Source: a virus
Reading direction: 5' to 3' (one strand)
Length of the DNA: 33,492 nt
Virus record (IMG/VR): IMGVR_UViG_3300032313_001337
Coordinates: 1 to 33,492 of that record
Below are positions 4,136 to 19,780 of the stretch, in pieces. Position 1 is the stretch's first letter. The number at the start of each line of letters is the position of its first letter. Under the pieces are notes generated by a model. The model saw only the letters and a list, made by a program, of their open reading frames with translations, searched no databases and was not told where the DNA came from. Both the position numbers and the translations under genes were made by a program.

Positions 4136-5017
4136 ATGAAACACAACTACCTAAACAACAGAGACATTCTTAAAGAAATCCACAAAAGTAAAACAACATA
4201 TTGCTCATTTTTGACACCAGATGATGGCCATTATGACATAATTTTGCCCGGTGTGGACAAGATCAACAAGAAAAACATCGCAGAAGGTCGCAAACTGCGA
4301 GCAGAAAGATTGACCAGAGCTGCTTATGATGCTGCACAAGCTGTTAGTACCACCAAATTAAAATTAGATGATTTTTCTGTAAAACCCACAAAAATTGTCA
4401 CTACAGATATAGTTTTTCGAATTATGACATGGGAACATGTTCCGGTAGACACTAGTAAGCCCAAGAAAGCTCGAGCACAATTGGTCAATGATGATGAGGA
4501 TCCGCTTACCGAATACGACGACGGAGTTGCTGCTGTTCCCACCAAGTATACCAAAGTTAATTTTCCACCGTTCCAACATTATCGAATTGACGACAATGGC
4601 GTTCCTTATTGTGTGGGCAAGAGTCACTGGAAGGGCGAATTGGAAGCTGGTATATTCTCCAAAGAGCACGGAACCATGACCAACAAGTTGGCTCACATGT
4701 TCATGAAACTGTGTGAACGCTATGCCACACGCTCAAACTGGCGTGGTTACACGTATAACGATGAAATGCGATCACAAGCTCTGCTACAATTATCACAGAT
4801 AGGACTACAATTTGATGAATCGAAATCACAAAATCCTTTTGCTTATTATACTGCTGCTATCACTAATAGTTTCACTCGAGTCCTTAACATTGAAAAGCGC
4901 AACCAGAATCTTCGAGACGATATACTCGAAATGAACGGGCTGACTCCCAGCTACACTCGACAGGGAATGGGTTCGTGGGGCGGTAGTACTCCATCAAATG
5001 ATTTTACCGACGATTGA
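4136..5017 (+). CDS. 55: gp55-like sigma factor for late transcription
   Basis: The 293-residue product contains the conserved core of T4-like gp55 at residues ~183-263: a helix beginning NKLAHMFMKLCERYATRSNW, the segment GYTYNDEMRSQALLQL, then PFAYYTAAITNSFTRVLN and a basic RNQNLRDD stretch. gp55 is a minimal sigma-family protein that binds host RNA polymerase and reads the TATAAATA late promoter; with gp33 and the gp45 clamp it drives late transcription. T4 gp55 is 185 residues, so this protein carries roughly 100 extra residues before the core, including a charged, Lys/Ala-rich stretch and an acidic NDDEDPL segment. AAAGGAAACGA precedes the ATG and gives a good ribosome binding site. It is transcribed divergently from the left structural genes, just upstream of gp47. 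Confidence 0.9.
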   Translation: MKHNYLNNRDILKEIHKSKTTYCSFLTPDDGHYDIILPGVDKINKKNIAEGRKLRAERLTRAAYDAAQAVSTTKLKLDDFSVKPTKIVTTDIVFRIMTWEHVPVDTSKPKKARAQLVNDDEDPLTEYDDGVAAVPTKYTKVNFPPFQHYRIDDNGVPYCVGKSHWKGELEAGIFSKEHGTMTNKLAHMFMKLCERYATRSNWRGYTYNDEMRSQALLQLSQIGLQFDESKSQNPFAYYTAAITNSFTRVLNIEKRNQNLRDDILEMNGLTPSYTRQGMGSWGGSTPSNDFTDD

Positions 5018-5055: not shown

Positions 5056-6075
5056 ATGTCTAATTTATTCAAACGAGCAGCAGTCTGCACTGATATTCAT
5101 TTTGGCTTAAAAAGCAACAGTCAAACACACAATGACGATTGCTTAAATTTTATTAAATGGTTTACTGCCAAAGCCAAAGAGGAAGGTTGTGAAACAGCTT
5201 TCTTTCTTGGTGACTGGCATAACAATAGAGCCAGTATCAATATTGTTACTCTCAATTATAGCCTACGAGCTCTGGAGCATTTAAATGACAATTTTGGCGC
5301 TGTTTATTTTATTCCTGGTAATCACGATCTTTATTATCGTGACAAACGTGATGTACAAAGTGTTGAATGGGCACGGCACTTACCTAACGTTCATATATGT
5401 AACGATTGGTATCATAGCGGCGACGTGGTTATTGCTCCTTGGCTCGTCGGTGATGATCATAAGCGGATTCCAAAACTGAATGCCAAATACATGTTTGGAC
5501 ATTTTGAATTACCAACATTCTACATGAATGCCATGGTACAAATGCCCGATCACGGTGATGTCAAACGTGAAGACTTTGGAGGTATCGAACATGTGTTCAC
5601 TGGGCACTTTCATAAAAGACAAACACAAAAGAATATAACTTATATTGGCAATTGTTTCCCGCACAACTACGCAGACAATCACGACGACGAACGAGGTATG
5701 ATGATCCTGGAGTGGGGACAAGAGCCTGAATATCATGCTTGGCCTGACCAACCTAGATATCGTGTTTACCAATTGAGCGATGTGCTTGCTAACACCGATG
5801 CATTACTAAACAAAGGTATGCATGTGCGTGTGAATCTTGATGTAGACATCAGTTACGAAGAAGCTACATTTATCAAAGAAACATTTGTAAATACTTACAA
5901 TCTCAGAGAAATAACACTTATTCCGCAAAAAACAGTGGGGGAAGATATCAACTACGATATTACTGGAAATATCATGTTTGAAAGTGTTGATACTATTGTT
6001 ACCAATCAGCTGACTAATATCCAAAGCGATCAATATAATAAAAACTTGCTGTTAGACATTTATAGGAACCTATGA
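5056..6075 (+). CDS. 47: gp47-like recombination nuclease subunit (SbcD/Mre11 type)
   Basis: This 339-residue calcineurin-like metallophosphoesterase shows the Mre11/SbcD motif series in order: DIH (D13, H15), GDWH (G52-H55), GNHD (G88-D91), a further FGH (H149) and GHFH (G183-H186). These residues bind the two catalytic metals. In T4, gp47 pairs with the ATPase gp46 to resect DNA ends for recombination-dependent replication and to degrade host DNA. Length agrees with T4 gp47. The partner gp46 lies 3.3 kb downstream instead of next door, separated by accessory genes. The start at 5056 keeps the first metal motif close to the N terminus as in relatives; there is no in-frame Met between it and that motif. 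The stop overlaps the next ATG (ATGA), so the cassette is translationally coupled to it. Confidence 0.95.
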   Translation: MSNLFKRAAVCTDIHFGLKSNSQTHNDDCLNFIKWFTAKAKEEGCETAFFLGDWHNNRASINIVTLNYSLRALEHLNDNFGAVYFIPGNHDLYYRDKRDVQSVEWARHLPNVHICNDWYHSGDVVIAPWLVGDDHKRIPKLNAKYMFGHFELPTFYMNAMVQMPDHGDVKREDFGGIEHVFTGHFHKRQTQKNITYIGNCFPHNYADNHDDERGMMILEWGQEPEYHAWPDQPRYRVYQLSDVLANTDALLNKGMHVRVNLDVDISYEEATFIKETFVNTYNLREITLIPQKTVGEDINYDITGNIMFESVDTIVTNQLTNIQSDQYNKNLLLDIYRNL

Positions 6076-6614
6076 TTTTAATTACCGGGAATAGCACATT
6101 AGCTATAGCATTACAAAATCACTTGCAAGATAGTGTTATTGCCGGTAGACCAACCTATGATTTTAAATCAAAACAGGACTGTAAGAAATTGATTAAGGAT
6201 TTTCCATCGCCACAAATTGTAATTAATACATTTGCAGATGTAGAATTAGATCCGTGGGACTCTCTTATAACTAATCTTGTTGCTCCAATATATCTAACTG
6301 ACCAATATTACCAACAACTTAGAATTGGACAGATTATTAATATAAGCAGCACGAGTGCCTGGTGGCCAAGTTATCCTGGCATTGATGATAACAGATTTTT
6401 CTACAATCTATCAAAATTTAGTTTAAGTGAATTTGGCCGTCAGTATAATCGAAAAGTAGTTGACGAGTCTAAGAATGTTGTTGTAACTACTATCGAAATT
6501 GGTAAGTTTCAGTCGCCAATGAGTAATTTTACCGGAATTTCTATTGACAAAGTTGTTGAATTAGTCAAGACTGCCATTGATCAAAAATGTAATTGGTTGT
6601 CGGCTATAAGATGA
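6072..6614 (+). CDS. short-chain dehydrogenase/reductase (SDR)-like protein
   Basis: The 180-residue product has an SDR-like Rossmann layout: an N-terminal strand and glycine turn (MILITGNSTLA), an Asn at the end of a strand (VIN, N52), a Ser-rich strand INISSTSAW (S92-S95) and the catalytic-type YNLSK (Y111, K115). SDRs use NAD(P)H to oxidise or reduce alcohols, carbonyls or sugar nucleotides. It is shorter than the usual ~250 residues, and the glycine motif is TGxxxLA rather than TGxxxGxG, so cofactor binding may differ. The ATG overlaps the gp47 stop by 4 bases and its stop overlaps the next ATG by 4. A second SDR (16308-16904) also sits beside a radical SAM gene. The substrate is unknown. 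Confidence 0.75.
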   Translation: MILITGNSTLAIALQNHLQDSVIAGRPTYDFKSKQDCKKLIKDFPSPQIVINTFADVELDPWDSLITNLVAPIYLTDQYYQQLRIGQIINISSTSAWWPSYPGIDDNRFFYNLSKFSLSEFGRQYNRKVVDESKNVVVTTIEIGKFQSPMSNFTGISIDKVVELVKTAIDQKCNWLSAIR

Positions 6615-7693
6615 ATTATTCTAACTACTCATATGAATCAATATCTCTATTAGAGATAGAAATAAGCACTTACTGCAATGCAGCTTGCCCGCAATGTCCT
6701 AGAAATGTGTATGGCGGCAAAACTGTGCCCGACTTACCTCTAATCAATTGGTCTACAGACCAGTTCATCAATATTATTAAAAAAGATTTTATACAGCAGC
6801 TAAAAGTAATTTATTTTTGCGGAACATACGGTGATCCATTGATGAATTCAAGCTTAGTAGAAATGTGTCATTATTTAAAAGCAGTGAATCCTAATATTAA
6901 AATTGGAATACATACTAACGGCGGAGCCGGAAAATCTGAAACGTTTCAACAGCTAGCAAAACTAGTAAATTTTATTGCATTTGGCATTGATGGACTTGAT
7001 GATACCAATCATCTATATAGAAGAAATACCAGTTGGGAAACTATATTAAATAATGCTCAATCCTACATTGATGCTGGTGGTTATGCTGTATGGGATTTTA
7101 TTGTGTTTAAACATAACCAACATCAAGTTGAGACAGCAAAAGAATTAAGTCAAAAGTTAGGATTTAAAGAATTTAATATTAAAAAGACAGGCAGATTTTT
7201 TAATAAAGCACACGAATTAATTAATAAGGTTGATGTACAAGATAAAAATAATAATTTTCTTTACAGCATAGAGCCTCCAAGCATCAATTTGTACAAAAAT
7301 ACCGGGTATGAACTAATAAAAGTCAAAAATCTTAGCAAATACATAGCCAGTACCAAAATTGATTGTTACTTTATGAAAAATAACATGGTATATATTGGAG
7401 CAGACGGATATGTATTTCCATGTGGATTTTTACACGATCGTCTTTACGGGATAGAAGTCAAAAGATCTTCAGATTACACAAAAATTAAAAAACTAATGGA
7501 CGATGTAGGCGGGAATCTTTTTACTAATGTTTTCTTTAATAGTATTAAAAACATCATCGACGGTCCGTGGTTTGCTGCAATTAAGTCATCGTGGGATAGC
7601 GAATCTCGATTAGAAAGATGTGCTATCACATGTGGCGAAACTATTAACTTAGTGGGACAACAAAATATTAACATTAAATATAAGCAAGGGTAG
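6611..7693 (+). CDS. radical SAM enzyme with C-terminal Cys cluster (SPASM/twitch-like)
   Basis: The N terminus carries the radical SAM cluster motif CNAACPQC (C22, C26, C29), which binds the [4Fe-4S] cluster that cleaves S-adenosylmethionine. A (beta/alpha) barrel follows with YFCGTYGDP, IHTNGG and FGIDGL segments. The C-terminal third has more cysteines (IDCYF, FPCGF, ERCAITCGE), as expected for an auxiliary cluster domain. It closely resembles the 15196-16311 protein: both share the CNAACPQCPRN motif, a FKHNxHQVETA segment and a KTGRFxN segment. I place the start at the ATG at 6611, which overlaps the SDR stop as ATGA; an upstream in-frame TTG at 6593 is less likely. The product is 360 residues. 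The substrate is unknown; adjacency to an SDR and an oxygenase suggests a shared pathway. Confidence 0.9.
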   Translation: MNYSNYSYESISLLEIEISTYCNAACPQCPRNVYGGKTVPDLPLINWSTDQFINIIKKDFIQQLKVIYFCGTYGDPLMNSSLVEMCHYLKAVNPNIKIGIHTNGGAGKSETFQQLAKLVNFIAFGIDGLDDTNHLYRRNTSWETILNNAQSYIDAGGYAVWDFIVFKHNQHQVETAKELSQKLGFKEFNIKKTGRFFNKAHELINKVDVQDKNNNFLYSIEPPSINLYKNTGYELIKVKNLSKYIASTKIDCYFMKNNMVYIGADGYVFPCGFLHDRLYGIEVKRSSDYTKIKKLMDDVGGNLFTNVFFNSIKNIIDGPWFAAIKSSWDSESRLERCAITCGETINLVGQQNINIKYKQG

Positions 7694-7695
7694 CC

Positions 7696-8220
7696 ATGAT
7701 TAAATCTATCAAATTAAATTTTGATTTTTCAATCTTCTTAGACGTCAATTATAGTCTGCACGAAGGAAGTTGTATCAAGCATCAAGTATACGAATTAGAA
7801 GATATTCATAAAAAGTTTGGAGGATTTCCGGCTTCTTATTGCTACGAAAATACCAAAATAAATCAGATTTGGTGGAATCAAGATCAAATTGATTACAATT
7901 CCATTGGTTTGCAACTTGGGATGGAAGTTATTAGCGTTAGTAGTATTCGACAACAGCCTGGGTGTGTTATACCATGGCATCGTGATACTTTCTATCAAAT
8001 TAAATCAAAGTTCCCCAATAGGTCTGAATGCAAAGTGCGGGCGAATATATATCTTGAAGATTGGAGGATAGGCCATATCATTCAATTTGACGATACAGTG
8101 CATACACATTGGAAACAAGGTGAGGGATGGTTGTGGGACGACACAATATTACATTTGGGCGCAAATGTAGGAATGCAGGATAAATTCACTTTACAAGTTT
8201 CTGGTTTTTTAAAGGACTAA
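7696..8220 (+). CDS. 2OG-Fe(II) oxygenase-like (aspartyl/prolyl hydroxylase-type) protein
   Basis: The 174-residue product has an HxD motif (IPWHRDTF, H95 and D97) and a later histidine in LHLGANVG (H153), the usual 2-His-1-carboxylate iron triad of 2-oxoglutarate dioxygenases on a double-stranded beta-helix. The segments VRANIYLEDW and WKQGEGWLWDDT also fit the aspartyl/asparaginyl hydroxylase-like group. Such enzymes hydroxylate amino-acid side chains, sugars or small molecules. The gene starts 2 bases after the radical SAM stop, and its own stop directly abuts a downstream ATG at 8221, so it is part of the same coupled run. The family is assigned by motif only; the substrate is unknown. 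Confidence 0.65.
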   Translation: MIKSIKLNFDFSIFLDVNYSLHEGSCIKHQVYELEDIHKKFGGFPASYCYENTKINQIWWNQDQIDYNSIGLQLGMEVISVSSIRQQPGCVIPWHRDTFYQIKSKFPNRSECKVRANIYLEDWRIGHIIQFDDTVHTHWKQGEGWLWDDTILHLGANVGMQDKFTLQVSGFLKD

Positions 8221-8259
8221 ATGAATCATTTTTTAGATAAAGCAAAAACCTTTTAGATT

Positions 8260-8823
8260 ATGCATAATCCAATAATTTCGCCAGACTCAATTGTTATATT
8301 AAAAAAATTTTTTGTGTTTGACAAAATATTTATTTTGTGCGAGTACGACCATAACATGGTTGAGTTATACGATGAACTAAAAAATCTTAAAAAAGAAACA
8401 TACAAATCAAATTATAGATTTATATTTTTACACTACGAAACAGAATATTACTTTCATGATTTATCTGACTCGGTCGGAGTAACCTTGTTGAATTTGCACA
8501 GAATATTACAGTCTCTAGATATACCAAATTATTTTTGTTTAATACTAACTCAACAACAAATAATAAATCAATTAGAATATATAAAAAATTTGACGTCAAA
8601 TGAATGTATAATTGACTCACTTACCTATTTTAATTATTACGCAATTGAATTACTCAATAACGATATAAATCATGAATTAGAAATTAATGAGAATGCTATT
8701 TGTGAAAAATATCTTGCTCTTAACAGAGTAAGCAGATTTCACAGGCACGCATTAATATCATTACTTAAACAAAAAAATCTCTTAGACCATGGAATAATTA
8801 GTTATAATGCCAAGCCCACCTGA
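8260..8823 (+). CDS. N-terminal half of split glycosyltransferase-like protein
   Basis: This 187-residue frame is AT-rich and ends in a segment LNRVSRFHRHALISLL followed by LLDHGIISYN, which resembles the middle of the intact relative at 28094-29191 (NNMSNYRSEKIYNYI ... WIVSIYDH). The start at ATG 8260 lacks a visible ribosome binding site; the better start at 8221 is separated by an amber codon. It overlaps the 8807-9388 frame by 17 bases. One 60-base line inside it (8521-8580) has 10 G/C bases, against 29 of 60 in a gp23 line (27361-27420), so composition differs from the core genes. The function rests on the family resemblance of the joined halves and is tentative. Confidence 0.55.
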   Translation: MHNPIISPDSIVILKKFFVFDKIFILCEYDHNMVELYDELKNLKKETYKSNYRFIFLHYETEYYFHDLSDSVGVTLLNLHRILQSLDIPNYFCLILTQQQIINQLEYIKNLTSNECIIDSLTYFNYYAIELLNNDINHELEINENAICEKYLALNRVSRFHRHALISLLKQKNLLDHGIISYNAKPT

Positions 8824-9388
8824 TTTGATACAATTATCAACAAATACTAGAATCAATCATAACTGGTTAGTAAAAAATCAGAATCTTAAAGAATCTTTAG
8901 CGGCTTTGCCTGACGATTTTATTTTTAAAAATTTTCACGAAGACGTAATCGATGACGTAATCGGTCCCGTTAGCAATAATTGTACTTTATCACAAAAAGC
9001 GTTTTTGCATGTAGTAACTGAGACAGTATATAATTACCCAACCACATACATAAGTGAAAAAACAATTAAGCCAATTATAAGTAAAAGACCATTTATTATT
9101 GTTGGCCCGTCAGGATCTGTAGACAATTTAAGATCAATTGGATTTAAAACATTTGGCGACTTTTGGTCTGAAGAATATGATGATATTTTAGATCCTGATG
9201 AACGTATAATAGCCATTGCAGATATTATTGAATGGATTTGTTCTAAATCAATCAATGATCTTCGGAATCTTTGCGTTAGCATGCAAGATGTACTAAACTA
9301 TAATTTTAATTTTTACGTCAATCAGTTTAAAAAAAACGAATACAAAAAATTAACTAAATTCTGTATACAGAATGTAAACCTAAGATAA
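8807..9388 (+). CDS. C-terminal half of split glycosyltransferase-like protein
   Basis: This 193-residue frame contains TYISEKTIKPIISKRPFIIV, then a GS-rich turn, LRSIGFKTF and EYDDILDPDERI. This SEK-x2-KP-x-(V/I)S-K ... GF-x-x-F ... YD pattern also occurs in the intact gene at 28094-29191 and resembles the donor-binding C-terminal domain of GT-B fold (family 10-like) glycosyltransferases. The frame is open upstream only to 8798, so a join to the N-terminal half must occur within 8798-8823. Its own ATG at 8807 could allow re-initiation. Its stop overlaps the gp46 ATG by one base (TAATG), so gp46 translation may depend on this segment being translated. Confidence 0.6.
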   Translation: MPSPPDLIQLSTNTRINHNWLVKNQNLKESLAALPDDFIFKNFHEDVIDDVIGPVSNNCTLSQKAFLHVVTETVYNYPTTYISEKTIKPIISKRPFIIVGPSGSVDNLRSIGFKTFGDFWSEEYDDILDPDERIIAIADIIEWICSKSINDLRNLCVSMQDVLNYNFNFYVNQFKKNEYKKLTKFCIQNVNLR

Positions 9389-11157
9389 TGTTCAAAATAA
9401 AAACACTTGCAGTAAAGAATTTCATGAGCGTGGGTAATTCTACCCAGGCTGTTCAGTTTGATCGTAGGGACCTTACTCTTGTACTAGGACAAAACCTAGA
9501 CTTGGGCGGAGACGATACAGGCGCACGTAATGGTACCGGTAAGACTACTATTATCAATGCACTGAGTTATGCCTTGTACGGTTCTGCTCTTACCAATATC
9601 AAAAAAGACAATCTTATCAATAAAACAAATGGTAAGAACATGTTGGTCACAATTGAGTTTGAAAAAGATGGTATTGATTATCGAATAGAACGCGGTCGTA
9701 AGCCCAATACCATGGCATTTTATGTAGGTGGTCAAGAGCAAGAAATCACTGACGAATCACAAGGTGACAGTAGAGAAACGCAAGCAGAAATCGAACGTAT
9801 GTTAGGTATGAGCCATGACATGTTCAAACACATTGTTGCTCTTAACACTTATACTGAACCTTTTCTAGCCCTTAAAGCAAATGATCAACGTGCTATCATT
9901 GAACAGTTGCTCGGCATTACCATGCTTAGTGACAAGGCAGATACCCTTAAAGAACAACTAAAAGCAACTCGAGATGCCATTACTGCCGAAGAGTACCGTA
10001 TTAAAGCAGTTAACGATGCCAACGGACGTATACAAGAACAGATTGATTCCACAAAGCGTAGACAAACCTTGTGGAACATCAAACGTCTGAACGAAATTGA
10101 TGAATTAAAAAAAGCATTAACAGCAATTGGTGATTTAGATATTGAACAAGAATTGTTGAATCACGACGCATTGCAAGCACAGAATGAATTGGCTAAAGCC
10201 GCAGCAGAAGTTAATAAGTGGAAAATTGCTTGCGAACAAGAACAAGTAAAGTTAATTAAAACGCAAGACAAATTAAAAACAGAAATAGAAAAACTTGAGA
10301 AGCATGAATGTTATGCTTGCGGGCAAGTCATGCACGACGACAAACATGAACAAGTGTTAAATGAAAAACGTGCTGCTGTGCAGGAAACCAGTTTACAATA
10401 TCTTGCCAACGATACACAACTTGCAGAACACATTAATACACTATCAGAACTAGGGAAACCTGGACCAATGCCCACGGTGTTTTATGATACCAAAGAAGAT
10501 GCTATCAATCATAAAAATACACTGGCAAACTTACGTCAACAATTAGCTGCAAAAGAAACAGAGGTAGATCCTTATGCAGAACAAATCGCCGAAATGCAAA
10601 CACAGGCCTTAGAAGAAATCAACTATGATAATATTAATGAATTGGCCAATGTTAAAGAACATCAAGAGTTCTTGCTTAAACTGTTAACTAACAAAGATTC
10701 ATTCATACGTAAACGTATTATTGATCAGAACCTAAGTTACTTGAATGCTAGACTAGGCCAGTATTTGGATCGTATTGGCTTGCCGCACACTGTAAAATTC
10801 CAAAACGACTTGACAGTCAGCATCGAGGAGCTGGGACGTGAGCTAGACTTTGATAACTTGAGCAGGGGCGAGCGTAACAGACTTATATTAAGTTTAAGTT
10901 GGTCTTTCCGTGATGTGTGGGAAAGTTTGTATCAACCCATCAACTTGTTGTTCATTGATGAAGTTATTGACACAGGTATGGATAGCTCGGGTGTTGAAAA
11001 CAGTCTAGCTATTCTAAAGAAAATGGCCCGTGAGGGTAATCGCAGTGTTTGGCTTGTTAGTCACAAGGACGAGCTAGCAGGGCGTGTAAACAATGTGCTC
11101 AGTGTAATTAAAGAAAATGGATTTACAACCTATAACACCGATGTAGAAATTCAATGA
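9388..11157 (+). CDS. 46: gp46-like recombination nuclease ATPase subunit (SbcC/Rad50 type)
   Basis: The 589-residue SMC-like ATPase has a Walker A GARNGTGKTT (residues 45-54), long charged coiled coils on both sides of a zinc hook CYAC (C308, C311), an ABC signature LSRGER (491-496) and a Walker B LLFIDE (520-525). With gp47 it forms the T4 Mre11/Rad50-type complex that processes DNA ends. Length and architecture match T4 gp46 (about 560 residues). It starts one base into the stop of the broken glycosyltransferase-like gene and its own stop overlaps the next ATG by 4 bases. In T4 the pair is separated only by a very small gene; here 3.3 kb of metabolic-type genes separate them. Confidence 0.95.
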   Translation: MFKIKTLAVKNFMSVGNSTQAVQFDRRDLTLVLGQNLDLGGDDTGARNGTGKTTIINALSYALYGSALTNIKKDNLINKTNGKNMLVTIEFEKDGIDYRIERGRKPNTMAFYVGGQEQEITDESQGDSRETQAEIERMLGMSHDMFKHIVALNTYTEPFLALKANDQRAIIEQLLGITMLSDKADTLKEQLKATRDAITAEEYRIKAVNDANGRIQEQIDSTKRRQTLWNIKRLNEIDELKKALTAIGDLDIEQELLNHDALQAQNELAKAAAEVNKWKIACEQEQVKLIKTQDKLKTEIEKLEKHECYACGQVMHDDKHEQVLNEKRAAVQETSLQYLANDTQLAEHINTLSELGKPGPMPTVFYDTKEDAINHKNTLANLRQQLAAKETEVDPYAEQIAEMQTQALEEINYDNINELANVKEHQEFLLKLLTNKDSFIRKRIIDQNLSYLNARLGQYLDRIGLPHTVKFQNDLTVSIEELGRELDFDNLSRGERNRLILSLSWSFRDVWESLYQPINLLFIDEVIDTGMDSSGVENSLAILKKMAREGNRSVWLVSHKDELAGRVNNVLSVIKENGFTTYNTDVEIQ

Positions 11158-11729
11158 TTGTCAAGTTCAATTTATTTTGCGGATTAGTCAACAGCCAAGG
11201 TCCTGAAATTGAAATACAAGTAAATCATAAAGTTGTTAGCTCTTTAATTGCTGACTGTGCAGAATTTACAATTGATCTGGATATCAACAATGATCAGACA
11301 AATGAAATATCTTTTATACATAAAAATAAAACTGATCACGATACCATTGTGCTTGATAATCAAATAGTTGAAGATAAATTTTTTAAAGTTACTAAAATTT
11401 GGGCTGATGATATATTGCTACCAGATTTACTATGTTATGGCCAGGCAACTATAATTTATTCAGACAGCTTTTTAAAAGACATCAATTATACACCAGAACG
11501 CAACTGCAAAAGTGACAGTTTGTATTTTAATGGACAGTTAACATACACGTTATCAAAAAATTTGTTTGATTGGTTGTACGAATATCACAGACAGCAAGAT
11601 TTAGAATACATTCAAGGTCATCATGATCATGAGGCCGAAGAAAAATATTTAGGCTATCAACAAGATTCAGATTTTGAGCAGGAAATAGTAGACTTGTTAG
11701 AGAATCATGGATACTGTATTACTCGTTAA
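11154..11729 (+). CDS. beta-rich protein of unknown function, partner A
   Basis: The 191-residue product is not recognised. Residues 1-140 alternate hydrophobic and polar residues as in a beta sandwich: EIEIQVNHKVV, FTIDLDI, EISFIHKNKTDHDTI, VEDKFFKVTKIWADDILL. The same order occurs in the 14688-15203 product (IKIVVDD, FDIDLID, LTIVHYGKLPEHHTY, VEIKSIKLDHVML), so the two look like paralogues. The C-terminal 50 residues here are acidic and His-rich (GHHDHEAEEK), a feature the other copy lacks. It overlaps gp46 by 4 bases and the following B12-type radical SAM gene by 23. The two beta proteins bracket the two B12-type radical SAM genes, hinting at a shared complex or substrate; this is inference. 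Confidence 0.8.
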   Translation: MIVKFNLFCGLVNSQGPEIEIQVNHKVVSSLIADCAEFTIDLDINNDQTNEISFIHKNKTDHDTIVLDNQIVEDKFFKVTKIWADDILLPDLLCYGQATIIYSDSFLKDINYTPERNCKSDSLYFNGQLTYTLSKNLFDWLYEYHRQQDLEYIQGHHDHEAEEKYLGYQQDSDFEQEIVDLLENHGYCITR

Positions 11730-13182
11730 TTTACCAAGACAAGAAGCCGAGCGATCACCTGCGGTCATTGCTGGACTAGCAGGTATATGCAAAAAAGCCG
11801 GAGTTGATTATGATGTGCTTGATATTAATCTTGCATGTGTCAAAAATTTAGAGCCAACTCAATGGCGAGATTTGCAAAGTTATGTTTCGTACTACATTGA
11901 CAGTAGCTATGACGCTAGCAATTTTGTTAATCTAGTAGAATCGTCGCTTCCCAAAATACAATATTCAATTATTGCAGTAAGCATGTTTACCTACGAAACT
12001 CTACGTGCCGGAAATATAGTTTTGCCTATGTTGAGAAAAGCATATCCTGACAGCAAAATTATTATTGGCGGGCACGGTGCTGATTTTGCCGATCCTGACA
12101 ACAACAAACAACCTTTTTACAAAAAACATCTAGAGTGCAAAAATATTGATGCTTATATTTTAGGCGAAGCTGAGTCTAGTTTTCAAACGTATATCAAAGA
12201 TCCCAACAGTTGGAACAATACTACCCATCGGCATGTGGTTGATGATTTGAATACAGTGCCTTTTGCCTGCTACGACAAAATTCCACCTGATGATTACTTG
12301 CATCACGGTGTGAGAGGTGCATACATAACCGGAAGCAGAGGATGTGTGCGTGACTGTACTTTTTGCGATGTTGGACACATCTGGGGTAAGTTCAGGTTCC
12401 GATCAGCCACTCATATTTTTGAAGAAATATTGCACCATCATCTCAATTACAATGTTACACTAATTGAATTCACAGATAATCTGATTAACGGTAGTTTGAG
12501 TGAATTTAAAAAATTAAATCAACTGCTTGTAGCTGCACAAGAACAATATCCCAGTCTCAAACAGTTACGATACAAAGGTGATTTCATTTGCCGGCCTAAG
12601 AATCAATTTACTGAAAAAGATTTTCAGTTGATGAAACAAGCCGGCTGCGAGGACCTGATAGTGGGTATAGAATCATTCAGTGAGCCTGTTAGATACCACA
12701 TGGGCAAAAAGTTTTCCAACGATGACATTGATTTTCATTTGTATGCCAGCGGTAAATATGGTATAAAAAATACGTTTCTCATGCAAGTAGGGTACCCAAC
12801 AGAAACGTTACAAGATCACGAAGAAAACAAAAAAGGACTATATCGTTATCAACGATATGCTCTGAGTCGTGTTATTAAAATGATACGGTGGGGCTATACT
12901 ACAGGTATTTTGCCAGGGTCTCCGTTGGATCTCAATCACCGACATAGTCTTCCGTTAATTAGTGAAGTCAAAAATTCTGAATTTTACGGAGAATCAAATT
13001 GGATCAATTTAAGCAATCCCACATTGACTTATGCAGAACGAATTCGACGAAGAATGGAGTTGCATTTTTTAAGCAAACAATTACAATATAACCAACCCAG
13101 AGTCAACGACGAATTTTTATCTATTTTGAGTCAATTAAAAAGTAATATAAAAAGTAAACAGGTAATACCTATTAAAAAATAA
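11707..13182 (+). CDS. B12-binding-type radical SAM protein, copy 1
   Basis: The 491-residue product has an N-terminal ~190-residue Rossmann-like domain typical of cobalamin-binding radical SAM enzymes (LLVNLPRQEAERSPAVIAGL, then IIIGGHGADF and YILGEAESSF), followed by the radical SAM motif CVRDCTFC (C213, C217, C220) preceded by TGSRG. The barrel contains IEFTDNLING, DLIVGIES and LMQVGYPTET, all usual in this family. The canonical DxHxxG cobalamin-ligand motif is not visible, so B12 may bind base-off or not at all. Family members methylate unactivated carbons or rearrange substrates. It is followed after 3 bases by a second protein of the same architecture. The substrate is unknown. Confidence 0.9.
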   Translation: MDTVLLVNLPRQEAERSPAVIAGLAGICKKAGVDYDVLDINLACVKNLEPTQWRDLQSYVSYYIDSSYDASNFVNLVESSLPKIQYSIIAVSMFTYETLRAGNIVLPMLRKAYPDSKIIIGGHGADFADPDNNKQPFYKKHLECKNIDAYILGEAESSFQTYIKDPNSWNNTTHRHVVDDLNTVPFACYDKIPPDDYLHHGVRGAYITGSRGCVRDCTFCDVGHIWGKFRFRSATHIFEEILHHHLNYNVTLIEFTDNLINGSLSEFKKLNQLLVAAQEQYPSLKQLRYKGDFICRPKNQFTEKDFQLMKQAGCEDLIVGIESFSEPVRYHMGKKFSNDDIDFHLYASGKYGIKNTFLMQVGYPTETLQDHEENKKGLYRYQRYALSRVIKMIRWGYTTGILPGSPLDLNHRHSLPLISEVKNSEFYGESNWINLSNPTLTYAERIRRRMELHFLSKQLQYNQPRVNDEFLSILSQLKSNIKSKQVIPIKK

Positions 13183-13185
13183 ATT

Positions 13186-14691
13186 ATGTCAATTTATGCT
13201 GTTATTCTTTCAATCCCAAGAGTGGCTCCGGTACGCCCGGCTGCTGCTCCGGCTATTATTAAAAGAATAATAAAAGAGCACAATTTATCTAGTAAAATAC
13301 TTGATATTAATATTAATTATTTTACTGATTTTAAAAATTCTGTTGACTCTGTATTGTTTAACGAAATTGATGACTACTTGTTTGTAAAAAATAAAACACT
13401 ATCAGCAACGGCTGCAACAGAGTTTCATAACTTCATTGATGGTTGGACACAACAGATAATTGTATTGCAACCAAAAAAACTGTTCATCAGTATTTTTAGT
13501 TGGCAAGCTCAGAGATTTGTTGAAGAGTTTTTGCGTAGATTTAGACTTGTTAGCACCATTGAAGTAATTGTGGGCGGGCAAGGACTCATTAGAGAAGAAA
13601 ACGGTAGCTACAGCGAACGTCCAGAATTTGCTCATTATTTAAAAAAAGAACACTTGATCGATCACTGGATACGTGGCGAAGCTGAAACTACCATTCCAGA
13701 AATAATCAAAGGCAACTATAATGTTGCTGGAATTGATACAGATTTTTTAGCTGAACGTAGCAACATTAAAACTCATGTGCCAATGGATTTTGACGACTTT
13801 GATATAACCAAATATCAAAGTGGATATGCCACTGGTGTGCTTCCAATGGAGACCAGCAGAGGCTGTGTACGTAATTGTAACTTTTGTGATATTCCTACTA
13901 TGCAAGGAGGTTTCAGATTTAAAACTGGTCTCCAGCTGGCCAACGAAATGATTCATTATTACGAATCATATGGTGTGCGTGACTATTTTTTTCATGATGC
14001 GCTATGCAATGGTAGTGTCAAAGACTTCAGACAGTTCAATAATACACTAATCGAATATTATCAAACAAACAACTTGCCTGACAGATATTTTAGTTACAGT
14101 AGCCATGCCATTGTACACAATGATCGAACATTTCGTCCTGGTGATTTTGAATCAATGGGACGGGCTGGAGCAGATACCATGGTCATTGGTGTTGAAACGG
14201 GCAGCGACCGTGTGCGTGGTCATATGAAAAAAGGCTATGTTGGCGAAGATCTTGATTACAACATAGAGCAGTACAGCAAACACAAAATGCATGTTTACTT
14301 CTTGATAATTGTTGGTTTTCCTACAGAAACTGAACAAGACTTTGTTGAAACACTAAACATGTTAACCAAGTATCAACGTTATGTGGCCGATGGTACTATT
14401 ATTGGTGTTAATTTAGGAACTACATTAACTATTGAAGAAGGCACTGAGTTGTACAATCGTCCTGATACATTAAAGATTGTTGGCGTTAACAATCAACGCC
14501 CACAAGGAACAGCATGGATCTGCGAGGATAATCCTGGTCTAACTTATAAAGAACGTGTCATGCGTAGAATCAGGGCACAGGAACATGCAGTTGCTCTTGG
14601 GTATACGTTTTGGAAAGGCGATGATCAAATGAAAATAATGATGGACGAATATCAAGACCGTCTAGCAAGACTTGCTGGGGTCATACATTGA
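13186..14691 (+). CDS. B12-binding-type radical SAM protein, copy 2
   Basis: The 501-residue product parallels its upstream neighbour: an N-terminal B12-domain-like region (AVILSIPRVAPVRPAAAPAI, VIVGGQGLI, WIRGEAETTI), the TSRG turn and radical SAM motif CVRNCNFC (C227, C231, C234), then YFFHDALCNG, TMVIGVETGS and LIIVGFPTET. Again no DxHxxG cobalamin motif is seen. The two proteins are clearly paralogous yet diverged, suggesting different substrates or successive steps rather than a recent duplication. The stop TGA overlaps the next gene's TTG start (TTGA). The C-terminal region (near residue 444, WICEDNPGLTYKERVMRRI) matches copy 1 (WINLSNPTLTYAERIRRRM), so the domain order is the same throughout. 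Confidence 0.9.
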   Translation: MSIYAVILSIPRVAPVRPAAAPAIIKRIIKEHNLSSKILDININYFTDFKNSVDSVLFNEIDDYLFVKNKTLSATAATEFHNFIDGWTQQIIVLQPKKLFISIFSWQAQRFVEEFLRRFRLVSTIEVIVGGQGLIREENGSYSERPEFAHYLKKEHLIDHWIRGEAETTIPEIIKGNYNVAGIDTDFLAERSNIKTHVPMDFDDFDITKYQSGYATGVLPMETSRGCVRNCNFCDIPTMQGGFRFKTGLQLANEMIHYYESYGVRDYFFHDALCNGSVKDFRQFNNTLIEYYQTNNLPDRYFSYSSHAIVHNDRTFRPGDFESMGRAGADTMVIGVETGSDRVRGHMKKGYVGEDLDYNIEQYSKHKMHVYFLIIVGFPTETEQDFVETLNMLTKYQRYVADGTIIGVNLGTTLTIEEGTELYNRPDTLKIVGVNNQRPQGTAWICEDNPGLTYKERVMRRIRAQEHAVALGYTFWKGDDQMKIMMDEYQDRLARLAGVIH

Positions 14692-15203
14692 AATTAGATA
14701 TAGACTTTACTGTTGAGCGTAGACTAGGTAATCCAATGATAAAAATTGTCGTCGATGATTACTTAACATTGTATGATGGTATTGCACAAGAACATTACGA
14801 GTTCGACATTGATTTGATCGACGGCGGACATGATTTGACTATTGTACACTACGGAAAGTTACCCGAACATCATACGTATAACAAGGACGGTTCTGTTGAT
14901 ATTGATCAACATGTTGAGATAAAAAGTATAAAATTAGATCATGTCATGCTGGAGTCTGAATTATGGTCAGGAAAATTCTTTCCTGTGTATATGCACAAGA
15001 CCAACGACGAACCGTATTTTATTTGTCCTAATTTATATCTAGGGCACAATGGTGCATGGAAATTAGAGTTTGCTACTCCAGCTGCTGCATGGTTAATTGA
15101 TTTAAGACAGCCTGGTCCAAAACTAGCAGGAACTATATTTAAAACAAATAGTGCCACACTAACCATGGCTAAAAATTTCTTTAAAGATTTACCAGATGTT
15201 TAA
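14688..15203 (+). CDS. beta-rich protein of unknown function, partner B
   Basis: The 171-residue product appears to start with TTG at 14688, overlapping the preceding stop as TTGA; the next in-frame ATG is 16 codons later and would cut into the first predicted strand. It shares strand order with the 11154-11729 product (see that entry) and ends with a NLYLGHNGAWKLEF / AAAWLIDLRQPG region matching SLYFNGQLTYTL / LFDWLYE there. No catalytic motif, signal peptide or membrane segment was seen. It overlaps the following radical SAM gene by 8 bases. Function unknown; a binding or scaffold role beside the radical SAM enzymes is a guess from position. Confidence 0.8.
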   Translation: MKLDIDFTVERRLGNPMIKIVVDDYLTLYDGIAQEHYEFDIDLIDGGHDLTIVHYGKLPEHHTYNKDGSVDIDQHVEIKSIKLDHVMLESELWSGKFFPVYMHKTNDEPYFICPNLYLGHNGAWKLEFATPAAAWLIDLRQPGPKLAGTIFKTNSATLTMAKNFFKDLPDV

Positions 15204-16311
15204 ATTTGATAACATCAATGAGTATCAACTGGAAATTACAACCTATTGTAATGCTGCCTGTCCTCAGTGTCCTAGAAATATACAAGGATCTGGCATTAAT
15301 CCTTATATGCCGTTGGTGCATTTAAGTCGCGAAGCTATTGATGCAGCATTTGGTGTCGAGCATTGCGGAAAGTTAAAACAAATATTCTTTTGTGGTAGTT
15401 ATGGTGATCCTGTCATGCATCCAGACTTTCTAGATATACTACAAGACTTTAGACGCAAACATCCAACGTTGTGGTTGTATATTCATACCAACGGTGGTGT
15501 ACACGACGAACGTTACTGGGCAGAAATTGCCACTATCATGAATGGCTACGGTCAAATTGATTTTGGGTTCGACGGGCTAGAAGATACTTTACATTTGTAC
15601 AGACGTAATGTAAAATATGCTGTTGCCATGCGTAATGCACGAGCATTTATTGGTGCAGGCGGTAGAGCACAATGGAACTATATTGTTTTTAAACACAACG
15701 AACACCAAGTTGAGACTGCACGAGCATTGAGCAAAGAGTATGGATTCTTTAACTTTTTGCCAAGAAAGACCGGACGTTTTTATAATCATACAAACGAGTG
15801 TGCATATCCAAATTGGCCTGTGCTGGATAAGAATAAAAAAATATTGTATGTTCTTGAGCAACCGGTTGGCGCTGAGTGGCAGAACCCAAGTGTGCAAAAA
15901 ATTGAAATATTAAAAAAAATGTATGGAGGCTTTAGAAAGTATCTTGATCAAACACCAATCAAATGTGATGCGTTACTAGGAAACAAGGTTGTTATCACTG
16001 CAGAAGGATTGGTATTGCCGTGTAACTTTTTTGAACACAATTTACACGATGCTAGATTCTACGATGATTATATGCCTGGCGCCAATGTAGCAAGTTTTAT
16101 TAGTACCGGTGGTAATCAAGTGCAAGAGTTTGTAGGACGTTACTATAACGAGCTTGATATAAATCAACATTGTTTAGAAAATATTTTTAAATCTAAATTT
16201 TGGGAAGAATTGACCAATCGCTGGACTGGTCCAAATAAAATTATGGAATGTGCAATGACTTGCGGTGAAAAATTTACCAAGGTATGGGATCAAGGAGGAT
16301 CCAAGAGATGA
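15196..16311 (+). CDS. radical SAM enzyme with C-terminal Cys cluster, second copy
   Basis: The 371-residue product opens with TTYCNAACPQCPRN (cluster cysteines C18, C22, C25), then IFFCGSYGDP, IHTNGG, FGFDGLEDT, and IVFKHNEHQVETA, with C-terminal cysteines in IKCDALL, LPCNFFEH, HCLENIF and MECAMTCGEKF. It is a paralogue of the 6611-7693 protein with the same domain order, and both copies sit next to an SDR gene, although the order is reversed (SDR first there, radical SAM first here). An ATG overlapping the previous stop by 8 bases sets the start. Auxiliary-cluster radical SAM enzymes often modify peptides or sugar-like substrates; which applies here cannot be told from the sequence. Confidence 0.9.
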   Translation: MFKFDNINEYQLEITTYCNAACPQCPRNIQGSGINPYMPLVHLSREAIDAAFGVEHCGKLKQIFFCGSYGDPVMHPDFLDILQDFRRKHPTLWLYIHTNGGVHDERYWAEIATIMNGYGQIDFGFDGLEDTLHLYRRNVKYAVAMRNARAFIGAGGRAQWNYIVFKHNEHQVETARALSKEYGFFNFLPRKTGRFYNHTNECAYPNWPVLDKNKKILYVLEQPVGAEWQNPSVQKIEILKKMYGGFRKYLDQTPIKCDALLGNKVVITAEGLVLPCNFFEHNLHDARFYDDYMPGANVASFISTGGNQVQEFVGRYYNELDINQHCLENIFKSKFWEELTNRWTGPNKIMECAMTCGEKFTKVWDQGGSKR

Positions 16312-16904
16312 AAGTTTTAGTCACTGGTGGTAATCGAGGTTTAGGTAAACACCTAGTTGAAGCATTTGACGGCGACAGTCTCAGCCGCGAAACTGGTTAT
16401 GATATTACCAAACATGTAAAAGAAATTGCCGATAAAAGCGTCATGTATGACGTGGTTATCAATAATGCGTTTGATGGGCCTCCACAAGAATCCTGGGCAA
16501 ACTTTGCACAAACAAACTTGTATATTGCCATATACGACAAGTGGAAGGCTGCGGGCAAGACCGGACATATTTTTAATATTGGATCAATTGGTGAAAAGCA
16601 TACAGTTGCACCAGAACCTAGATTTGAAACTTATAGAGTCAGCAAAGCTGCGCTAAGTCATGCAAGTAAGCAGGGCACCCAAGCATTTAAACAAAATCTA
16701 GTTTCTTTTAAAACAACATTAATTACACTAGATAGATTAGATACAGAACTTAGTCGTAGTAGATCAAACTGGACCGGAAACGGAATTAATTTAACAGACA
16801 TCGGTGATTTTATTCATTATAGCACAAACATTAATTCAAATACCTGTGTTGAAGAAATAATATTTTACTGCAATTTGCAACATGAACAAAATAGTACGCA
16901 TTGA
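16308..16904 (+). CDS. short-chain dehydrogenase/reductase, second copy
   Basis: The product (198 residues from the ATG at 16308) has a complete SDR cofactor motif TGGNRGLG (T6-G13), a NNAF motif (N52-F55), a catalytic Ser in IGSIGE (S93) and YRVSK (Y109, K113). This copy therefore looks more canonical than the SDR at 6072-6614. The start at 16308 is chosen because AAGGAGG (16292-16298) lies at proper distance and the ATG overlaps the preceding stop as ATGA; an upstream in-frame extension to 16284 would place this ribosome binding site inside the gene. The 3' end overlaps the next radical SAM gene by 23 bases. NAD(P)-dependent oxidation or reduction of a pathway intermediate is likely; the substrate is unknown. 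Confidence 0.85.
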   Translation: MKVLVTGGNRGLGKHLVEAFDGDSLSRETGYDITKHVKEIADKSVMYDVVINNAFDGPPQESWANFAQTNLYIAIYDKWKAAGKTGHIFNIGSIGEKHTVAPEPRFETYRVSKAALSHASKQGTQAFKQNLVSFKTTLITLDRLDTELSRSRSNWTGNGINLTDIGDFIHYSTNINSNTCVEEIIFYCNLQHEQNSTH

Positions 16905-17508
16905 ACCCATTGACGATGTTTTCAGTATAACGTGGACCATGCATCTGCGATGCAATTACGACTGTATGTATTGCGGTGACGTTCGGCATGAATACAATCA
17001 AGGAAAAGTGTTAAGTCTAGAAGAATTACAAAGTTACTGGAATCAAGTTTACGAAAAAACAAAACATACCAACAAACTGTATAAACTGGTGCTGTCGGGC
17101 GGTGAGCCAACTGTGAATAAAAATTTATTGCCATTTGTCAAATGGCTACGAGATACATTTAAAGATAGAATATTTCAGCTGGGTTTGTGTACCAACGGTA
17201 GTGCCAGTAAATCTTATTACCTGGATCTATTTGAATATTTTGACTGGATTTCGTTTTCCACTCATACTGAATATCTAGATGAAGAAAAATTTTTTAATTC
17301 GGCTGTTGCGTGTAATGCGTATGCCAAAGAAATTGGCAATAAAAGTTTCATGATAAAAATTATGCCCGAACCGTGGGCCAGTAATTCTGTACAGAAATTC
17401 ATTCAAATTTGTCAGCAAAATAATATTCATTATGATTTGGCCGACCATATTGATATGACCAGACAAACTAGAGCACATCCTATTTTTAAAATAAAATCAT
17501 ATGATTAA
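16882..17508 (+). CDS. radical SAM protein, barrel portion of a split gene
   Basis: This 208-residue frame has the cluster motif CNYDCMYC (C24, C28, C31) and the SAM-binding GGEP (73-76), followed by LGLCTNGS and ISFSTHTEYL, so the catalytic part of a radical SAM barrel is present. It ends abruptly with a stop at 17506-17508, and the next frame, shifted +1 and overlapping by 8 bases, begins with what looks like the missing C-terminal SPASM-type Cys domain. At 208 residues it is shorter than the 350-370 of the other single-module radical SAM proteins here. Either a one-base frameshift split one gene, or the two parts work as separate polypeptides. Confidence 0.8.
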   Translation: MNKIVRIEPIDDVFSITWTMHLRCNYDCMYCGDVRHEYNQGKVLSLEELQSYWNQVYEKTKHTNKLYKLVLSGGEPTVNKNLLPFVKWLRDTFKDRIFQLGLCTNGSASKSYYLDLFEYFDWISFSTHTEYLDEEKFFNSAVACNAYAKEIGNKSFMIKIMPEPWASNSVQKFIQICQQNNIHYDLADHIDMTRQTRAHPIFKIKSYD

Positions 17509-17815
17509 ATTAAAAAACGACGAAAATTACAATTGTACAGTGTTTTACGATGATGGGGAAACTTCAAAAATATTTTCCACCGCATTGAATGCCAACAACT
17601 TAGATAATTTTAAAAATTGGCAGTGCGAAGCGGGTTTCTCTAGAATTTATATACATGCAGACGGCAGCGTGTGGAGTAGCGAATGTAACAACGATTATTT
17701 GGGTTCTTTAGTGGATCAATCGTTTGCTCTTTTGACCAATACCACTACTTGTCGGCTTGATAACTGTGTTACCAGTGCTGACGAATTGATGTTAAAAAAA
17801 TACAGATTAGACTAA
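17501..17815 (+). CDS. SPASM-like Cys domain, C-terminal portion of the split radical SAM gene
   Basis: The 104-residue product has the spacing of a SPASM/twitch auxiliary cluster domain: WQCEAG (C42), a strand with a DG turn (IYIHADGSVW), SECNND (C62), and C84-x4-C89 followed by TSADE. No radical SAM CxxxCxxC motif is present, so it depends on the preceding frame. The frame is open upstream only to 17495, so a fused protein would need a +1 shift within 17495-17508, inside an A/T-rich stretch. No good ribosome binding site precedes the ATG at 17501, though re-initiation at the overlapping stop is possible. Confidence 0.65.
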   Translation: MIKLKNDENYNCTVFYDDGETSKIFSTALNANNLDNFKNWQCEAGFSRIYIHADGSVWSSECNNDYLGSLVDQSFALLTNTTTCRLDNCVTSADELMLKKYRLD

Positions 17816-17834
17816 CAAATGATAATTACACTGT

Positions 17835-18269
17835 ATGTCATGGATATTCGAAACTACTACAGTGGAAACTCTACCCGAAGATTGTGTGGGTTTTGTGTAT
17901 TTGATCACTAATTTAATCACTGGACGAAAGTATATTGGTAAAAAACTGGCCAAATTTGCAAAAACAACCTACAAAGTCGTCAAACTCAAAAACGGCAACA
18001 AAAAGAAGAAAAAAATTAGAAGTAAAATAGACAGCGACTGGCTCACATATTATGGCTCAAACGACGAATTAAACAAAGACATACAGACACTAGGTCATGA
18101 AAACTTCAAACGAGAAATACTCTACTACTGCACTTCCAAAGCACAATGCTCATACATCGAAGCACGAGAACAATTTAGACACCAAGTCTTAGAATCAGAT
18201 GCATATTATAACGGACAGATCAGCGTTCGTGTCCATGGCTCCCACATAAAAAACAAGTTAGGCAGTTAA
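17835..18269 (+). CDS. GIY-YIG family endonuclease
   Basis: The 144-residue product contains a GIY-YIG-type core: GFVYLITNLITGRKYIGKKL near residues 19-38, a Lys-rich insert (KLKNGNKKKKKIRSK), a WLTYYGSND segment, and an EAREQFRHQ helix with the expected glutamate. Such proteins in T4-like phages are often free-standing homing-type or DNA-processing nucleases. No separate DNA-binding repeat domain is visible, so it may be a small stand-alone nuclease. It is the last gene of the plus-strand run and lies directly before the 408-base gene-free, hairpin-rich region, an arrangement typical of mobile nucleases next to a structured RNA or insertion point, but no intron boundaries were identified. 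Confidence 0.8.
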   Translation: MSWIFETTTVETLPEDCVGFVYLITNLITGRKYIGKKLAKFAKTTYKVVKLKNGNKKKKKIRSKIDSDWLTYYGSNDELNKDIQTLGHENFKREILYYCTSKAQCSYIEAREQFRHQVLESDAYYNGQISVRVHGSHIKNKLGS

Positions 18270-18677
18270 GCTAGCACAGGCCAATATCGTGTGCCCTATA
18301 CCTGGTAGTAATACGCAGGGATGGAAGACTCGCCGCTGCAACGAGCACTCAATCACTACCCGTAAGGATGACGATCGCTAATCGCCGCGATTTGATTGTT
18401 TGAAGATGATTTTAAGGCTAAAAAGACGCAGTAGCGATACTGCACGTTTGTTAGATATGCTGATATATGTTTAACAAATCGCCGTTGTACAAGAACGGAG
18501 CTCGAGGTACAGGACAACCGCCTCTGTAATGCTCTAATATCAGTGACTGTGCTACTCAGATGAAGTACACTATATTTTTTGCCCGCCCTGGGCAAAGAGT
18601 GACTGATTAATCTAGATGAAATCTCTAAAACAATATTGATGAGCGTAAGCGAAATCAATAGACTAACGAAGTTAGTC
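18270..18677 (+). ncRNA. candidate structured RNA or complex intergenic region
   Basis: No convincing gene lies in these 408 bases between convergent genes, unusual in a genome with overlapping genes. Hairpins seen by eye: GCACA/TGTGC (18274-18278 with 18290-18294); CTCG/CGAG (18329-18332 with 18342-18345); an ATCGC/GCGAT pair near 18374-18391; GCAGTA-GCGA-TACTGC (18428-18443, a GNRA loop on a six-pair stem); TTTGTTA/TAACAAA (18447-18478); CCGTT/AACGG (18482-18497); TTTGCCC/GGGCAAA (18578-18596); a TATTGAT/ATCAATA helix closing a GC-GTAA-GC hairpin (18634-18660); and AGACTAAC-GAA-GTTAGTCT (near 18660-18679). No tRNA, RNase P, tmRNA or clear group I core was recognised. The strand is unknown; plus is listed because the stems follow the plus-strand operon. 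Confidence 0.4.
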
Positions 18678-19751: not shown

Positions 19752-19759
19752 TATAAATA
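19752..19759 (+). promoter_or_regulatory. T4-type late promoter for the tape-measure-like gene
   Basis: The plus strand reads the perfect consensus TATAAATA, 31 bases before the ATG at 19791. It overlaps the leader of the divergent gp26 transcript. Confidence 0.7.
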
Positions 19760-19772
19760 ATTGATATATGAA

Positions 19773-19780
19773 TATTTATA
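19773..19780 (-). promoter_or_regulatory. 26: T4-type late promoter for gp26
   Basis: The minus strand reads the perfect consensus TATAAATA, 31 bases before the gp26 ATG at 19741. With the plus-strand copy it forms a symmetric divergent pair whose transcripts overlap at their 5' ends. Confidence 0.7.

Follow-up and report, generated by a model that had tools for sequence, protein, structure and literature searches.

Exchangeable insertion slots with radical SAM modules flank gp46 in the recombination operon of uncultured jumbo myophages

Introduction

How do radical SAM enzymes come to be encoded within a phage recombination operon, and what could they be doing there? Radical SAM enzymes carry out some of the hardest biochemistry known, and those of viruses are largely uncharacterised. 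The question is raised by the virus record IMGVR_UViG_3300032313_001337 (33,492 bp; hereafter the window, meaning this whole stretch of DNA), which keeps a T4-like gene frame. An initial sequence-only reading of the window had noticed that 3.3 kb of enzyme genes separate gp47 from gp46, and that 6.7 kb more follow gp46. Both observations hold, with gp47 and gp46 identified as the T4-type, SbcCD-like pair by PHROG 100 and 77, a gap of 3312 bp between them and 6658 bp from the end of gp46 to position 17815. The same reading took these genes as inserted into the operon, which is borne out by relatives, cultured as well as uncultured, whose sites are empty, and perhaps as members of one pathway, a proposal that did not survive the comparisons described below. 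The locus is instead a pair of exchangeable insertion slots in the order gp55, gp47, slot 1, gp46, slot 2 and segE, and its carriers, all uncultured, are jumbo myophages of one clade akin to PA5oct and Atu_ph07. The genes concerned (Table 1) are named here rS1 to rS5 and rS5c (radical SAM), SDR1 and SDR2 (short-chain dehydrogenase-like, SDR), GTa and GTb (glycosyltransferase-like, GT) and bet1 and bet2 (beta proteins).

Two insertion slots around gp46

Loci were collected through scans with rS4, gp46 and bet2, with at most 80 loci per scan, and then annotated and clustered; all counts are lower bounds. The relatives within the clade are metagenomic contigs throughout, which collapsed at 97% gp46 identity to 106 lineages (IMG/VR). 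Among cultured phages, the nearest gp46 proteins come from the jumbo phages PA5oct (49%) and Atu_ph07 (46%). Together with RaK2, these phages keep the frame of gp55, gp47, gp46 and hub gene; their gp47 and gp46 lie side by side or almost so, without such enzymes between them or just past gp46. Many uncultured relatives likewise show gp47 adjacent to gp46 in the same frame. Slot 1 was empty at 39 of 94 sites (gap of at most 31 bp) and filled with 0.6-3.9 kb at 55, and slot 2 was empty at 13 of 85 (at most 71 bp) and filled with 0.2-6.7 kb at 72, the sizes of empty and filled sites being bimodal. Radical SAM genes were present in 65 of the 72 filled slot-2 sites. Because part of the set had come in through rS4, the count was repeated on the loci found with gp46 alone, where slot 2 was filled in 42 of 55 cases, 35 of them with a radical SAM gene, and slot 1 in 37 of 62, with a radical SAM gene in 13.

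The contents of slot 1 are chemically mixed, comprising DUF6071/SGNH-type proteins, N_Twi radical SAM proteins, AMP-ligase, methyltransferase and GT-like proteins as well as unknown ones, and the two slots vary separately from each other. The recombination operon can in this way serve as a place where accessory enzymes are swapped, and exchange of slot 2 could be driven in part by the SegE-type GIY-YIG gene that borders it on the right. Rare slot contents, as judged by eye, are proteins that resemble asparagine synthetases and oxygenases in slot 2 of one locus (L079:12615-15944) and an amidinotransferase-like protein in slot 1 of another (L138:8820-10001), in both cases with no Pfam support where tested.

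Pairing, fusion and reassortment of modules

Phages exchange and reassort the short, self-contained modules that fill the slots. Wherever the radical SAM gene rS4 was scored, SDR2 comes next (79 of 79 loci), and in ten loci the two form a single fusion of 568-574 aa. Of 152 B12-type radical SAM genes (the kind to which rS2 and rS3 belong) scored automatically with profiles, 148 have a beta-family neighbour, the exceptions being one at a contig edge and three with either an antisense-ORF call or a sub-threshold, beta-like neighbour of 136 aa. The rS5 gene always has rS5c as its immediate neighbour, in reading frames that differ among loci, and the two are fused in L109 and L154, from which we conclude that they are a natural split radical SAM enzyme with a detached twitch-like domain.

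Mantel comparisons of pairwise identity matrices, done on 19-28 lineages, gave r = 0.95 for rS3 and its beta partner, next to 0.94 for the core control of gp46 and gp47, and values of 0.56 for rS3 against rS4 and 0.59 for rS3 against gp46. Between loci L001 and L027, gp46 is 87% identical and rS3 44%. Moreover, a scan with rS3 placed this gene nearly always in slot 2 and revealed seven loci that have it with beta partners and without rS4-SDR2. The four-gene block rS3-bet2-rS4-SDR2 also occurs in a different phage context (L217), where a cupin gene immediately precedes it and a GT-like ORF follows at a distance of 31 bp. Genes for CsgG curli protein, 6-pyruvoyl tetrahydropterin synthase and a CHASE2-guanylate cyclase are found near that block (L217:2689-15656), and the contig may be phage or partly cellular. 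The rS5-rS5c pair is also present beside uvsX in other phages, in L312 together with N_Twi radical SAM genes and an SDR around uvsX, so radical SAM modules have been inserted beside recombination genes more than once. The stretches in question, from other T4-like phages, are L312:2322-8341 and L264:4835-6922, in which radical SAM, SDR and rS5/rS5c genes flank this RecA-like gene.

On these grounds a fixed pathway of 12 genes was rejected: the slots are independent and the modules separate and reassort, to which we can add that the slot-1 gene set of the window was found in just one other, near-identical contig. The neighbourhood comparison for shared order and co-occurrence that the sequence-only reading had proposed gave a divided answer, with the modules independent of one another, but with fixed pairings (rS4-SDR2 and radical SAM-beta) and an often conserved order inside slot 2.

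Radical SAM load and Fe-S support

In nine large contigs of the clade, 127-364 kb long, we counted 4-17 PF04055 domains each and 5-13 N_Twi_rSAM matches, many of them over the cut-off, compared with 0, 4 and 1 radical SAM genes in PA5oct, Atu_ph07 and RaK2, respectively. NDP-sugar epimerases are encoded in eight of the nine contigs, a carbamoyltransferase also in eight, and A-type Fe-S carriers in four, with two each in the three largest; searches of PA5oct, Atu_ph07 and RaK2 gave no A-type carrier and no carbamoyltransferase, and no PF00111 ferredoxin was found in the jumbo genomes. An Fe-S carrier encoded by the phage fits with radical SAM enzymes that would be active. The carriers, matching PF01521, are located at G001:99115 and 168852, G002:175425 and 256604, G003:78295 and 168566, and G008:133636.

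A further radical SAM locus of these phages has five N_Twi_rSAM genes in tandem, each coding for ~400-460 aa, and behind them genes for SGNH/DUF6071 proteins and a carbamoyltransferase (L165:4950-11510; also L164 and L171). This type of locus, which recurs in eight of nine contigs searched, adjoins GT-like genes, and L165 also has tail-fibre-like genes as judged by eye.

Possible substrates and biological roles

The reading we prefer, with a confidence that falls slightly short of an even chance, is that the slots hold exchangeable tailoring enzymes for sugars or glycoconjugates, with a role at the surface or on the virion. The units would be the slot-2 modules, that is, rS4-SDR2, rS2-bet1 and rS3-bet2, and the split pair rS5-rS5c. 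A beta protein would bind or present the glycan, the radical SAM enzyme would alter an unactivated carbon by epimerisation, deoxygenation, oxidation or methylation, and the SDR would reduce or oxidise the keto product, comparable to AprD4/AprD3 on aminoglycosides. The product would then alter the surface of the infected host or the virion, and, the modules being under diversifying exchange, the role would probably be superinfection exclusion, receptor masking or evasion. The position next to gp46 and gp47 suggests expression before virion assembly, presumably early or middle together with gp46. Sugars are pointed to by the carbohydrate-binding module (CBM)-like fold of the bet2 model, the precedent of AprD4/AprD3, the sugar genes of these phages and the pelagimyophage island of radical SAM and glycosyltransferase genes (PMC7029224). 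Among the targets envisaged by the sequence-only reading (a glycan, a peptide or the virion surface), the modelled fold of bet2 and the genome context would favour a glycan.

By alignment, the beta proteins bet1 and bet2 belong with their relatives to a single, diverse family, for which a sequence comparison with the PDB gave no close relative. The two best solved structures for the bet2 model were modules of CBM36/CBM60, which are calcium-dependent and have a beta-sandwich fold (Foldseek probability 1.00, E 3e-3), with a TM-score by target of 0.62-0.73 and 12% identity, and three proteins of uncultured phages matched the model with E below 1e-8. A conserved C-terminal segment of bet2 is of low model confidence. 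Members of the family also occur beside N_Twi radical SAM genes (L100, L188 and L256) and, in eight loci, between two related aminotransferase-type proteins, one of which reached 22.5 bits with PF00155, the others tested having no Pfam match. Since such different enzyme types share the beta family, the beta protein is most likely a general partner on the substrate side. In the aminotransferase loci (L227:10014-12548, with L226, L228, L230, L231, L234, L235 and L106), the flanking proteins that take the place of the radical SAM partner are pyridoxal phosphate (PLP)-aminotransferase-like and carry an SxSK motif.

Several observations weigh against sugar tailoring. The match of bet2 to the CBM structures stands at E 3e-3, and the evidence for a glycosyltransferase is weak: the GT-like ORFs are without a Pfam match, and a modelled fused homologue (L126) resembled GT-B/fucosyltransferases only weakly, the model being too poor for a firm assignment of the fold. 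The cassette enzymes fall outside characterised families, every NCBIfam score being far under its cut-off, and a profile of rS4 matched no radical SAM chain in the PDB. Moreover, the Mantel r of rS4 with SDR2 is just 0.62, a moderate value which indicates that the boundary between them was sometimes recombined.

The strongest rival, which we consider unlikely, is that the radical SAM enzymes modify proteins, the beta protein itself being the dedicated substrate, such as a small decoration protein or adhesin whose C-terminal tail is flexible and which is methylated or cross-linked by the B12-type enzyme, as in the maturation of ribosomally synthesised and post-translationally modified peptides (RiPPs) or of metalloenzymes. 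The nearly 1:1 pairing and co-divergence of radical SAM and beta genes would be expected from it, and so would the conserved, poorly modelled C-terminal segment. The best NCBIfam scores, which include PhpK P-methyltransferase and RiPP C-methyltransferase for the B12-type enzymes and maturases for the SPASM-like ones, point in the same direction. With the B12-dependent methyltransferase families the top score is 73.7 bits, where the cut-off lies at 600, and with the B12-binding domain it is 14.1, where the cut-off lies at 32.1. The cassette gaps of at most 39 bp, however, have no room for the precursor peptide of a RiPP cluster, the fold is carbohydrate-binding-like, and the presence of beta proteins between aminotransferase-like pairs favours a shared binding role.

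Likewise improbable in our opinion is that the slots are landing sites open to auxiliary genes that are unrelated and share no substrate, as the chemical mixture in slot 1 and the reassortment of modules would suggest; such sites would not be expected to show the radical SAM bias of slot 2, nor to keep its pairings and, often, its gene order. We give still less credit to the production or alteration of nucleotides or phage DNA, whether as hypermodified bases or viperin-like analogues. A location in recombination operons, with gp46/gp47 here and uvsX in L312, would fit co-expression with the nuclease, and the best NCBIfam score of rS5 is to prokaryotic viperin (48.6 bits against a cut-off of 180), but that score is generic for the superfamily, no gene in the cassette matched a DNA-modification gene, and neither a CBM-like partner nor SDRs would be anticipated. 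Lastly, an assembly chimera or a frameshift in one contig, which GTa/GTb and rS5/rS5c could evoke by resembling broken genes at first sight, is refuted by splits that recur in many loci with differing overlaps and frames, by the existence of fused forms and by the whole arrangement in scores of independent contigs.

Sugar tailoring also admits a bolder version, to which we assign little probability: the beta proteins would be exchangeable glycan carriers or acceptors, each with an enzyme module (a radical SAM enzyme or an aminotransferase-like pair) plugged on, in a combinatorial glycan code written by radical chemistry, whose genes would lie next to those of the recombination nuclease. We know of no modular tailoring system of this kind in viruses or cells.

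Comparison with known systems

The pelagimyophage host recognition cluster is a hypervariable island between conserved T4-like modules, with glycosyltransferases and, in MAGV3 and MAGV16, swapped radical SAM cassettes, and an alteration of host surface glycans has been proposed for it and for related cyanomyophage islands (PMC7029224). That island lies between VrlC and gp14 and contains tail fibres, whereas the two slots described here flank gp46 in the recombination operon of jumbo phages, have no tail fibre gene and, in most filled slot-2 sites, carry radical SAM genes. The T4-like viral genome TARA_ERS488813_N000010 (183 kb) has 12 radical SAM genes and an A-type carrier (PMC5332604), and so shares with the jumbo relatives, which reach 16-17 radical SAM genes and two carriers, a high number of such enzymes and an Fe-S carrier of its own; the parts of its description available to us mention no gp46/gp47 locus, modules or partner genes. 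In apramycin biosynthesis, AprD4 and AprD3 are a radical SAM enzyme and its NADPH-dependent reductase partner acting on a sugar (PMC5461906). The rS4-SDR2 pairing resembles them, although AprD4 showed no detectable similarity in sequence to rS4 and was matched, weakly, only by the B12-type radical SAM profile (6fd2, E 4e-4). CBM36 and CBM60 are paired with glycoside hydrolases, whereas bet2 would be a stand-alone protein of this fold next to tailoring enzymes. As for the operon, the gp55-gp47-gp46 order of T4 is that of the cultured jumbo phages, and it is here interrupted and trailed by foreign enzyme modules. T4-like hypervariable islands with radical SAM genes were already published; the slot locus and its modules were not, and a literature search on radical SAM genes at gp46/gp47 returned nothing relevant.

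A bacterial origin or a known biosynthetic context for rS4 and rS3 was also considered and found no support: 84,980 genomes of bacteria and archaea, scanned with short patterns, gave zero matches, although distant homologues could escape them. Among 50,697 phage records, rS4 had just four weak partial matches and rS3 none, and no homologues of rS3, rS5, SDR2 or bet2 were found in cultured phages. With the cellular scans empty and the phage matches few and weak, the rS4 and rS3 families may be specific to viruses. The locus offers defined and repeatable phage radical SAM enzymes together with their natural partners (an SDR, a carbohydrate-binding-like protein and a detached twitch domain), which can be cloned as pairs.

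The genes of the window

Table 1. Features of the gp55-segE region, with positions in the window
Feature	Position	Strand	Site	Support
gp55, late sigma factor	4136..5017	+	core, upstream frame	PHROG 12791, E 3e-79; same place in PA5oct, Atu_ph07 and RaK2
gp47, SbcD-like recombination nuclease subunit	5056..6075	+	core, left border of slot 1	PHROG 100, E 2e-59
SDR1, short-chain dehydrogenase-like	6072..6614	+	slot 1	PF00106 E 1.5e-4, below cut-off; YNLSK; ATGA overlap with gp47
rS1, radical SAM/SPASM-like	6611..7693	+	slot 1	PF04055 56 bits; rS4 paralogue
Asp/Arg-hydroxylase-type 2-oxoglutarate (2OG)-Fe(II) oxygenase	7696..8220	+	slot 1	PF05118 24.4 bits (cut-off 22.6); HxD...H
GTa, N-terminal half of GT-like protein	8260..8823	+	slot 1	natural split, same in L069, L091, L119 and L137; fused in L120 and L126
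GTb, C-terminal half of GT-like protein	8807..9388	+	slot 1	homologues adjoin gp46 in other loci
gp46, SbcC-like recombination nuclease subunit	9388..11157	+	core	PHROG 77, E 3e-104
bet1, beta protein, rS2 partner	11154..11729	+	slot 2	aligned family A1; adjoins rS2 in relatives
rS2, B12-type radical SAM	11707..13182	+	slot 2	PF04055 45.7 bits; best NCBIfam TIGR04479, far under cut-off
rS3, B12-type radical SAM	13186..14691	+	slot 2	PF04055 65 bits; relatives found
bet2, beta protein with CBM-like fold, rS3 partner	14688..15203	+	slot 2	AlphaFold pLDDT 86; Foldseek 2xhh/2xfd
rS4, radical SAM with twitch/SPASM-like C-terminal cysteines	15196..16311	+	slot 2	PF04055 39 bits; invariant cysteines
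SDR2, dedicated rS4 partner	16308..16904	+	slot 2	beside rS4 in 79/79; fused to rS4 in ten loci
rS5, radical SAM core, catalytic half of split enzyme	16882..17508	+	slot 2	PF04055 28.9 bits; fused to rS5c in L109 and L154
rS5c, detached twitch-like cysteine domain of rS5	17501..17815	+	slot 2	always directly 3' of rS5; reading frame varies
SegE-type GIY-YIG gene	17835..18269	+	right border of slot 2	PF19835 115 bits; kept where slot 2 is empty
Terminator-like hairpin past operon	18426..18445	.		convergent gap 18269-18678; consensus scan only

The gene kinds given by the sequence-only reading stood for five radical SAM modules, a count that includes the split pair at 16882 and 17501, two SDRs, one 2OG oxygenase and two beta proteins; the glycosyltransferase is a doubtful label and corresponds to two ORFs. 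The CxxxCxxC motif is intact in five proteins, of which rS1 to rS4 exceed the PF04055 gathering threshold and rS5 comes close to it (cut-off 29.5 bits). Two pairs of paralogues are found among them, rS1 with rS4 (35% over 367 aa) and rS2 with rS3 (28%). In rS4 the pattern C257-x13-G271-x4-C276 and C352xxxC356 is invariant, with Pfam SPASM scores below cut-off; the SPASM/twitch subfamily is defined by CX9-15GX4C and further C-terminal cysteines that bind an auxiliary cluster. Membership of N_Twi_rSAM (NF033640, 170 bits, N-terminal twitch domain) is not seen in the window, where rS1, rS4 and rS5 gave 42, 22 and 27 bits; its cut-off is reached only by other radical SAM proteins such as F11, F22 and those of the tandem array. 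SDR2 shows TGGNRGLG and YRVSK with Pfam below cut-off, and SDR1, counted as an SDR on the motifs TGxxxGxG and YxxxK, has a degenerate glycine motif beside YNLSK. The oxygenase contains HRD and LHLGANV.

In the window, minus-strand genes for virion and baseplate proteins precede gp55-gp47-gp46 and the SegE-type gene on the plus strand. The baseplate hub gene comes next, on the minus strand, and the portal, head protease and major head genes lie beyond it. The overlaps that the sequence-only reading had taken as a sign of coupling with the nuclease genes are as in a coupled operon: once starts are corrected, neighbouring cassette genes overlap by up to 23 bp or lie up to 39 bp apart, and several junctions are 4-bp ATGA/TTGA overlaps, such as that of SDR1 with gp47. 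The likely starts of rS1 and SDR2, each with an ATGA overlap, are 6611 rather than 6593 and 16308 rather than 16284. Slot-1 genes have a G+C content of 27-35%, against 38-39% in gp47 and gp46. The T4 late promoter TATAAATA does not occur at 4-19 kb, its total in the window being about that expected by chance and hence uninformative; divergent boxes like it are found at 19752-19780, between the hub gene and a 755-aa gene starting at 19791 (plus strand). The consensus scan for hairpins gave 14 in the region, with 8.1 expected. Finally, the SegE-type border gene exists in two diverged forms at the same place, with ~65-90% and ~35-40% identity to that of the window.

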